DNA of 64,000 nucleotides from Thermofilum uzonense. Its GTDB lineage: Archaea; Thermoproteota; Thermoprotei; Thermofilales; Thermofilaceae. The stretch lies in contig NZ_CP009961.1 in NCBI RefSeq assembly GCF_000993805.1, positions 148,001 to 212,000 of the forward strand. Reading direction: 5' to 3'. This document shows, piece by piece, positions 39,321-41,647 of this stretch. Positions within the stretch are counted from its first letter, which is position 1. The number at the start of each line of letters is the position of its first letter. The notes under the pieces are model-generated. The model saw nothing but the letters and a program-made list of their open reading frames with translations, did no database searches and was not told the DNA's origin. The translations under genes and the position numbers were made by a program.

Positions 39321-39650
39321 ATGAATTTAGCAACATTGCTCATACTGATTTCATGGGGACTCGCTTTCGTCATTATAGGACTTGGGTTAATCACGGGCTA
39401 CGAAGTCTTCCCGCTGGTAATAACAGTTTCCGGGCTATCCCTACTGTTCAGGGCGTTTGGGGTAAAGTGCCGAGCAGATAAATGCAGGGACAGGGGCTTT
39501 TTGCTTCTATGGTCTGTTTTTCTCCTAGAATCTGGGCCTTTGATAGAGCTTTATAAATATTATCCTTCACCAGCTCTTATCATTGGTATCTTCTTAATAG
39601 TGCTGGCAGTTTCAGCCTACATAATAGATAAAAAATATTCTATAATTTGA
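39321..39650 (+). CDS. Small membrane protein of the SPFH operon
   Basis: 109 residues with hydrophobic stretches near residues 3-25, 28-45, 58-72 and 84-104, and a hydrophilic C-R-A-D-K-C-R-D-R loop near residue 50. Family unknown. It lies 8 bases after the SPFH gene and probably anchors that complex in the membrane, by position only. Its 3' end overlaps the convergent CinA-like gene by 11 bases. Confidence 0.6.
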   Translation: MNLATLLILISWGLAFVIIGLGLITGYEVFPLVITVSGLSLLFRAFGVKCRADKCRDRGFLLLWSVFLLESGPLIELYKYYPSPALIIGIFLIVLAVSAYIIDKKYSII

Positions 39651-40449
39651 CGCCCGGCTCCTTTAAAACAATTATTTCCCCGCCCAGCTTCTTAGCACTC
39701 ATGAGTATGTACTCAAAGCATGATCGAAGCTGTGACATGTTCTCGATACCAAAAGTGATAAGATGTATTTCGAGAACAGGAGAACCTAGCTCCACGCCCT
39801 TAGGATGACTCTTTACATATACTGACTTATACCTCTCGGCAGCGTCCTTTACGAAAGGGGCAAACTCAGACTCAGGAATACCTTTGATCGTTAAAAGTGC
39901 TTCATAAAAATCAATTCTCTGAAACTCCCTCTCAATAATCGGCTGTACACTCGTCTTAAAAACGGCCTCAACTTCGCGAGGTGGTCCCGGGAGAACAAAG
40001 AAGTGAACTCCACGGTATTTGAGGTAAACTCCCGGTGCGGTACCAGCCGGGTTATCCAACGGTTTAGATCCCAAGGGAAGATACGCCATTTTAATTCTTT
40101 CTGGTGTTAGAGGCAAACCCCTCGAAGAATACTTCTCCCTTACAAGGGCGAGCGCCTCAGCGTTCAACACTAGCGGTAGGCTGAAAGCTCGAGCTAACCC
40201 TTCAACTGTTTTATCGTCGAAAGTAGGTCCAAGGCCCCCTGTAGAGATGACCAGCTGGACTTTTCTCTCAATTGCTGAAAGAAATGCCGATGCGATTTCA
40301 GACACATCATCTTTAACAATAACGATAGAATCTACAATGAACCCCATTTTTGTAAGCTCTCCTGAAAGCCAGTGGGCATTCGTGTTCAAAACTTTCCCTA
40401 TGAGAAGCTCGTTTCCAATACTTAGGATCATTGCCTTGTTAAATTGCAT
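39640..40449 (-). CDS. CinA-like molybdopterin-binding domain protein
   Basis: About 269 residues. The MoCF-type fold is shown by L-S-I-G-N-E-L-L-I-G-K-V-L-N-T-N at the N-terminus, S-T-G-G-L-G-P-T-x-D-D-K near residue 70, and P-G-P-P-R-E-V near residue 155. The family covers the CinA N-terminal domain, linked to nucleotide (ADP-ribose) pyrophosphatase activity, without the C-terminal NMN deamidase domain. The open frame goes up to 40509, but its first 20 codons are fully explained by a C/D box RNA, and the ATG at 40449 gives the usual family start. A second candidate ATG is at 40431. Confidence 0.85.
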   Translation of the reverse strand: MQFNKAMILSIGNELLIGKVLNTNAHWLSGELTKMGFIVDSIVIVKDDVSEIASAFLSAIERKVQLVISTGGLGPTFDDKTVEGLARAFSLPLVLNAEALALVREKYSSRGLPLTPERIKMAYLPLGSKPLDNPAGTAPGVYLKYRGVHFFVLPGPPREVEAVFKTSVQPIIEREFQRIDFYEALLTIKGIPESEFAPFVKDAAERYKSVYVKSHPKGVELGSPVLEIHLITFGIENMSQLRSCFEYILMSAKKLGGEIIVLKEPGVKL

Positions 40450-40459
40450 AGGAGGATGC

Positions 40460-40509
40460 TCAGCCTCTAGTTTATTCGTCACGCTATCAGCCGTCTCTTC
40501 CATCATCAC
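40460..40509 (-). ncRNA. C/D box guide RNA (predicted), upstream of the CinA-like gene
   Basis: The minus strand reads box C GTGATGA (40509-40503), 12-nt guide TGGAAGAGACGG, box D' CTGA (40490-40487), 4-nt spacer, box C' GTGACGA (40482-40476), 12-nt guide ATAAACTAGAGG, box D CTGA (40463-40460). All four boxes and both 12-nt guide lengths fit the archaeal C/D RNA architecture, so a chance match is unlikely. The 10 bases that follow lead to the CinA-like ATG. The targets would carry CCGTCTCTTCCA and CCTCTAGTTTAT (as RNA); I do not recognise them. Confidence 0.8.
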
Positions 40510-40534
40510 CGAATTACAGTAAGAGAGTTTAAAC

Positions 40535-41647
40535 TTAAATTTTCCAGTCTCGAGTATCCACTTTTTTCAAGATAAAAGTTCTAAGAAAGCTTGCCATCAT
40601 TATAGATGACCAGATCGGTGAATAGAAGAAGAAATACAAAGTGAGCCACAATGGTTTTACCTCATATCCTATCCTTCGACCGAACGCGTAAACGATGGTG
40701 GAATAAGCGAGAAAGTATGGAATGGTGAAATATATCTGAGGAGGTAGAAATGCTAAAACAGCATCTGCCAAGTAAACTATCGGTAGAAGTGGGGCAAAGA
40801 AACCAAGACCCAAGTGCCATAAGGTAACGAGGAAACCGGATATTGCTGGGAAAAATAAAAGAATCTCCGCCATGAAAATAAATATCCAAGGAAACATTAC
40901 CACTAGGGCTGAGAGAGATTCAAGCGGGTACGATAGGCTACCTTTGTATAAGAGTGGAAAGTACTCCTTTAACCATAACCATGCCCCCTGGGACCATCTT
41001 AGTCTTTGATTTATCCATTCACGTACACTTGATGGAGGATCTACTACAACATAGGAAGAATAAAAGTACCTGTATCGTAAGTTAAGATAAAAGCTCCTAA
41101 ACCCTATATCCATGTCCTCTAGAAGACAGTTCTTAAATCCTCCAAGCTCCTTCAAAGCATTTCTTCTGAAGGCAAAGGCTGCGCCGTTGAGTCCAGCACA
41201 ACGCTTTACCCTTCTATCGAAGATGTAACTTGCAATTCCGAAGGAAAGGTAGTCGTAATAGATGAGTTTTCCGATCAGCCCTTTATTCTTAGAAATCTTC
41301 TTTATTTCCATAACGTCATATTTTTCGATTTCCTTAAGTAGTGCGTCTAGGAATGCTGAATCCCTTATGGTGACATCACTATCCAAGAAAATAAGGACCT
41401 CGCCTCTAGCGAGCGATAAGGCATCATTAAGCGCCGCGACCTTTCCCCTCCTAACATCACTTACTGAAAGAACTATCTTTTCCCGATACATAGACAATAT
41501 CTCTTTCAACTTTTCACTAGGCTCGTCGACGCTTGCTATAACTTCGATCGTATCGCCTAAAGAGTTTTGCAGGAAAAACTCTAGTAGTTGTTGGATGTTC
41601 TCGGGTTCACGGTAAGCTGTAAGAATTACTGTAATCTTTGGTCTCAT
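40535..41647 (-). CDS. Family 2 glycosyltransferase, membrane-bound (processive type)
   Basis: 370 residues. The GT2 catalytic domain (about 1-230) has V-I-L-T-A-Y-R-E-P near residue 7, R-R-G-K-V-A-A-L-N-D-A near residue 66, F-L-D-S-D near residue 91, the acid E-D-M-D near residue 176 and Q-R-L-R-W near residue 214. This last motif is typical of processive beta-glycosyltransferases such as hyaluronan, chitin or poly-GlcNAc synthases. Four to five membrane helices follow (residues 240-365). It is the last gene of the glmS operon (ATG overlap of 4 bases), so UDP-GlcNAc is a likely donor and a surface glycan the likely product. Confidence 0.87.
   Translation of the reverse strand: MRPKITVILTAYREPENIQQLLEFFLQNSLGDTIEVIASVDEPSEKLKEILSMYREKIVLSVSDVRRGKVAALNDALSLARGEVLIFLDSDVTIRDSAFLDALLKEIEKYDVMEIKKISKNKGLIGKLIYYDYLSFGIASYIFDRRVKRCAGLNGAAFAFRRNALKELGGFKNCLLEDMDIGFRSFYLNLRYRYFYSSYVVVDPPSSVREWINQRLRWSQGAWLWLKEYFPLLYKGSLSYPLESLSALVVMFPWIFIFMAEILLFFPAISGFLVTLWHLGLGFFAPLLPIVYLADAVLAFLPPQIYFTIPYFLAYSTIVYAFGRRIGYEVKPLWLTLYFFFYSPIWSSIMMASFLRTFILKKVDTRDWKI

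Follow-up and report, generated by a model that had tools for sequence, protein, structure and literature searches.

Can one stretch of 50 nucleotides be a guide RNA and the N-terminus of a protein at the same time? The question is raised by positions 40460..40509 (minus strand) of the window, the 64-kb stretch of DNA from the heat-loving archaeon Thermofilum uzonense analysed here. At this site a C/D box sRNA body, from the C box to the D box, coincides with the beginning of an ORF for a CinA-like protein (39640..40509, minus strand; 289 aa from the GTG of the C box; MoCF_biosynth in Pfam). The body is supported by the sequence itself, by sub-threshold C/D matches in Rfam and by orthologues. 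The original prediction placed a textbook C-12-D'-4-C'-12-D guide RNA in the first 20 codons and regarded the N-terminus of the protein as false. Our main reading, with a probability of roughly 0.9, is that the locus encodes a functional C/D double-guide sRNA for two sites in 23S rRNA, which in this clade would also serve as the 5' end of the mRNA for the CinA-like protein. The host genome, a single contig of 1.61 Mb, is labelled G000 in the comparisons below.

The layout C-12-D'-4-C'-12-D is exact on the minus strand, and its total span of 50 nt corresponds to 16.7 codons, not 20. The C box GTGATGA (40503..40509) agrees with RUGAUGA. It is unchanged in the four copies linked to cinA, and holds both a GTG and an ATG start of the cinA frame. 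It is followed by the D' guide TGGAAGAGACGG (40491..40502), the D' box CTGA (40487..40490), the D'-C' spacer TAGC (40483..40486), the C' box GTGACGA (40476..40482), the D guide ATAAACTAGAGG (40464..40475) and the D box CTGA (40460..40463), all on the minus strand. Both CTGA boxes agree with CUGA and are invariant across the copies. The C' box shows one change from the consensus and includes an in-frame GTG. Each guide is 12 nt long and adjoins its box, as is usual for C/D sRNAs (~12 nt). The ends of the mature sRNA, estimated from the sequence, are probably at ~40513-40456 (minus strand).

A pattern scan of the 64-kb window finds this C/D motif only once. The pattern is absent from 150 second-order Markov shuffles of the window, with either strict or loosened boxes. 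Genome-wide, the C-D'-C' pattern has three matches and a reversed control pattern has none. Apart from Thermofilum sp. NZ13, a collection-wide pattern scan returns matches in bacteria only, and these are unrelated. Rfam gives no family match over the window at the gathering threshold. In a permissive Rfam search, the top matches are archaeal C/D families, which are aligned end to end over 40458-40513: sR14 with 27.4 bits (gathering 38; E 8e-6) and sR1 with 20.7 bits (gathering 45; E 0.0016). The k-turns of C/D sRNAs require protein to fold, and minimum-free-energy folding of the stretch (z -0.9) is therefore uninformative, as expected. The models behind the sigma-70 and terminator scans carry no information for an archaeal host. 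The sRNP machinery is represented in the host by a fibrillarin gene (PF01269, E 2.5e-100).

A second likely C/D sRNA in this genome is located between tRNA genes (G000:C1:11266-11214, minus strand; L001 ~1501-1553) and reads ATGATGA-12-CTGA ... CTGA. Its D' guide is complementary to 16S rRNA at local position 1158 over 11 positions, one of them G:U. A further C/D-like candidate, ATGATGA-14-CTGA-GTGAGGA-CTGA, is seen at G000:C1:779842 (plus strand; L003 ~1501-1550). For its D' guide, no rRNA site made a convincing target.

The guides at the cinA locus were compared with the rRNAs of the host genome itself. The target of the D' guide is TCGTCTCTTCCC (local 23S 2659-2670); the guide pairs with TCGTCTCTTCC over the 11 positions immediately next to the D' box. 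The target of the D guide is CCTCTAGTTTAC (local 23S 2834-2845); this guide pairs with CCTCTAGTTTA over the 11 positions immediately next to the D box. Guides of this class are expected to show at least ~9 bp adjacent to the box with a paired fifth position, and both guides are Watson-Crick at the fifth. Random 12-mers from the window reach such pairing at a frequency of 0.0052 with up to one G:U, and of 0.0004 with no G:U. The joint chance for both guides is ~2 in a million, if they are treated as independent. The weak points in the pairing are the outermost guide base, which is mispaired in several genomes, and a G:U adjoining the D' box. The original prediction had pointed to rRNA and tRNA as places to look for targets. 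The target strings that it gave are found in the 23S rRNA, as TCGTCTCTTCCC and CCTCTAGTTTAC. For tRNA, with 30 of 40 loci compared, the nearest match of the D guide falls in flanking sequence. In 16S rRNA a convincing site is absent, with best scores of 5.5 or less.

The methylated base is located by the fifth-nucleotide rule of C/D sRNAs, which predicts 2'-O-methylation at C2663 and U2838 of the local 23S rRNA. These nucleotides align to positions 2511 and 2685 of E. coli rrlA. Since the numbering of this rrlA copy is shifted by one in the region of the peptidyl transferase centre, they correspond to C2510 and U2684 in the standard numbering. Archaeal 23S helices 90-93 are a hotspot of methylation (PMC4644070). 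The distance of 175 nt between the two targets counts against the assignment, as the targets of double guides are typically within 100 nt of each other (PMC4644070).

The same part of the 23S rRNA has peculiarities of its own. The peptidyl transferase centre reads GACGTCGTCTC (L004 4154-4170) in the host and in most family members checked. E. coli and the relative G017 have GATGTCGGCTC there, so that GACGTCGTCTC has C for U2504 and U for G2509. The 23S gene of G017 is split by ~680 bp within domain V (L123/L124; G017:C130:63418-64466), and the interruption is probably an rRNA intron.

The CinA-like protein is traced in 53 of 61 related genomes. In three genomes of the same genus (G001, G005 and G006), the sRNA is found at the same place with identical boxes (the C' box being RTGACGA) and nearly identical guides. 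The part that varies among the linked copies is the D'-C' spacer. Another relative, G003, has a full sRNA without cinA (E 2e-10). This copy is directly downstream of the orthologue (51% identity) of a nucleotidyltransferase that is encoded two genes upstream of cinA in the window; the glycosyltransferase and cinA are both absent from the G003 site. This synteny indicates that it is the same locus and that the RNA has persisted where the gene has not. The D' half is present with different partners or boxes in four further Thermofilales (G004, G012, G016 and G022), and the D half is present in G017. Matches to the D' half in two Pyrobaculum-group genomes have 2 mismatches and resemble coding sequence, and were left out of the counts.

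In G008, which belongs to another genus, the synteny of glycosyltransferase and cinA is kept together with an sRNA remnant, GATGGCGACAGAAGAGACGGCTGA. The C box of this remnant is altered, apparently by three extra bases. The sRNA copy upstream of cinA in G008 (L040 1113-1210, minus strand) is apparently decayed and partly duplicated (ATGGCGACAGAAGAGACGGCTGACCC and ATGGCGACTACCGAACCGGCCGACCC), and the ORF start comes from the second sRNA copy.

The D guide covaries with its target. The ninth base of the target is U in G000 and G005, C in G001, G006 and G017, and G in G003. The opposing guide base is A, G and C, respectively, which makes A-U, G-C and C-G pairs, Watson-Crick in all six genomes. 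Each guide fits the rRNA of its own genome at least as well as that of any other genome. Such a fit is given by 12 of the 720 dealings of the six target letters, although this figure is descriptive as the genomes are not independent. The covariation concerns one position with at least 2–3 changes, and the 23S targets were taken from chosen genomes. G002 and G004 have G in the D target, and a D guide was not found in either of them with one mismatch allowed. Conservation and covariation are thus both seen, as expected of a C/D sRNA. The covariation, with three pair types and including an unlinked copy, is strong comparative evidence that the RNA functions.

Constraint of the same kind is visible in the codons. 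Across the sRNA, which takes up 17 codons, a single third-position difference separates G000 from G005; the other 17-codon windows of the gene show at least 8, with a mean of 11.3. Codons for the same amino acid are identical between the two genomes in 14 of 14 cases in the sRNA, versus 62 of 171 elsewhere in the gene. The amino acid changes affect the outer end of the guide, the spacer and the covarying base, which changes K13 to R13 among the cinA-linked genomes. The frozen third positions are a constraint of the RNA type.

The reading frame is kept as well. In the 12-4-12 layout, the frame that starts at the C box is the sole frame free of UGA. The spacer, although its sequence varies freely, is 4 nt long in every cinA-linked copy, versus 3 nt in the free G003 copy, where UGA would come into frame. 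Past the D box, the length of the linker differs by exactly 3 nt (one codon), and the frame is kept. In G001 and G006, the stretch from the D box to the conserved core lacks any in-frame ATG, GTG or TTG. In these two genomes the start would therefore be within the sRNA, barring a non-standard start. A start inside the sRNA is forced there by the lack of another standard one, and is optional in G000 and G005. G005 has one ATG after the D box. G000 has an ATG at 40447..40449 (minus strand; MQFNKAM), which is present in the window genome only, and another at 40429..40431 (minus strand; MILSIGNE). Starts at 40449 or 40431 are possible in the window genome, and with downstream ATGs available, the N-terminus could be dispensable in this genome and in G005. 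MoCF_biosynth begins at residue 28 of the ORF, so the earlier statement that the protein family starts right after the RNA is about right.

A BRE/TATA-like element, GGAAAATTTAAG (40534..40545, minus strand), is located upstream. This is the single occurrence of its motif GGAAA[AC]TTTAA in the window, and the motif is kept in three relatives. The first T of TTTAAG is 30 nt upstream of the C box in G000. Across the four cinA-linked copies, TTTAA starts 30 nt (G000) or 34 nt before the C box, and the free G003 copy has TTTAAA 29 nt upstream. The TATA shares sequence with the stop codon (40537-40535) of the glycosyltransferase gene upstream. From the position of the TATA and the usual spacing between TATA and start in archaea, the 5' end of the transcript is expected at the C box or ~4 nt before it. 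Such an end would fit a mature sRNA end as well as a near-leaderless mRNA. The sRNA and the cinA mRNA probably share promoter and 5' end, and the promoter position thus favors the proposal that the RNA shares the leader of the cinA transcript.

It can be asked whether the sRNA is real and the annotated N-terminus nevertheless false, with the sRNA in a 5' untranslated leader and the start of cinA after the D box. The conserved domain does start after the sRNA, the window genome offers ATGs at 40449 and 40431 and G005 offers one, and the cinA proteins of other relatives begin near the core. This is a possible arrangement but an unlikely one. G001 and G006 offer no standard start after the D box, the linker length differs by exactly one codon, all linked spacers have 4 nt, which of 3 or 4 is the sole UGA-free length, and the promoter puts the 5' end almost at the GTG/ATG. 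On the evidence of the missing starts, the linker and the spacers, the false N-terminus of the original prediction is probably wrong, or at least unproven. Dual coding, in which the C box GUGAUGA gives a GUG or AUG start, appears likelier than a false N-terminus.

The remaining explanations concern the RNA itself. If the locus were protein-coding only and its C/D look a coincidence of codons, the open frame kept in four genomes would be accounted for. Neither the frozen third positions nor the restriction of nonsynonymous change to the spacer, the guide ends and the covarying base would be expected. The complementarity of both guides to rRNA, with covariation, and the free copy without cinA, whose frame would be closed by a stop, also argue against this explanation, and it is almost certainly wrong. 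Loss of the methylation role is conceivable too, with an L7Ae-binding k-turn left to regulate cinA translation in the manner of an L7Ae leader switch. L7Ae binds and represses mRNAs with k-turns (PMC5539422), and the C box spans the putative start codon. However, a pure switch needs no two conserved 12-nt guides covarying with 23S rRNA, and the free copy of G003 has no cinA to regulate, which makes this explanation very improbable. The guide RNA as such, the core of the original prediction, is borne out by targets for both guides, orthologues, covariation, frozen third positions and the promoter distance.

The boxes, geometry, targets, conservation, covariation, promoter motif and missing starts in two relatives are read from the sequence, and from them we infer the start of transcription, the processing, the methylation, the use of the C-box start and a competition of two fates. 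A single BRE/TATA promoter would place the transcription start at the C box or a few nucleotides ahead of it. A transcript bound by L7Ae, Nop5 and fibrillarin would be trimmed to the sRNA, which would guide fibrillarin-catalysed 2'-O-methylation at the equivalents of E. coli C2510, which is close to the peptidyl transferase centre, and of U2684. A transcript that meets a ribosome first might become a near-leaderless mRNA read from the GUG or AUG inside the C box, and the guide would thereby also encode the N-terminus of the protein. It can be tentatively speculated, at somewhat less than even odds, that the transcript is bifunctional, becoming either sRNA or cinA mRNA, that L7Ae competes with the ribosome for one set of bases, and that the N-terminal residues of CinA follow the rRNA. 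The competition of sRNP and translation is plausible, since L7Ae represses mRNAs with k-turns (PMC5539422). Reporter work as summarised in a review (PMC7994747), in which a gene is transcribed less when its 5' end overlaps the sRNA, counts against our main reading.

The locus thus holds an unannotated guide RNA whose rRNA targets near the peptidyl transferase centre are backed by covariation. It offers a clear and conserved example of a single sequence that is constrained both as a guide RNA and as a reading frame. Natural controls exist in a relative with the RNA but without cinA and in another with cinA and a broken RNA. The use of the C box as a start codon, and guide sRNP assembly versus translation, become testable. 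The case warns that an ORF caller may hide a guide RNA within an N-terminus, and equally that an N-terminus of this sort is not necessarily false.

No paper on C/D sRNAs of this archaeal order was found in the literature searched. Compared with archaeal C/D sRNAs such as sR14 and sR1 (PMC7994747, PMC4644070), the sRNA has the same boxes, 12-nt guides and compactness of 50–60 nt, and likewise is a double guide targeting 23S rRNA near the peptidyl transferase centre. It differs in that no Rfam gathering score is reached, and no named family is matched to its guides and sites. Archaeal C/D sRNAs that overlap the 5' end of an ORF have been described before and are rare. In the account of Tripp et al. 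2017 given in PMC7994747, such overlap concerns ~7% of genes, and the start mostly falls within a guide or beyond the D box. The present locus resembles the cases outlined there in the overlap of the ORF start and in a common transcript, the latter being likely here from the promoter position. Compared with the same outline, it differs in that the full C-to-D body is in frame, with a candidate start in the C box, and is kept in four species. As in L7Ae-mRNA k-turn regulation (PMC5539422), a k-turn at the 5' end of an mRNA could allow L7Ae to block translation; in the present case the element is an entire guide sRNA that has targets in rRNA, and regulation would be an additional, putative role. 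Full in-frame embedding with a C-box start, kept in four species, can be considered at most an uncommon variant of the known overlap.
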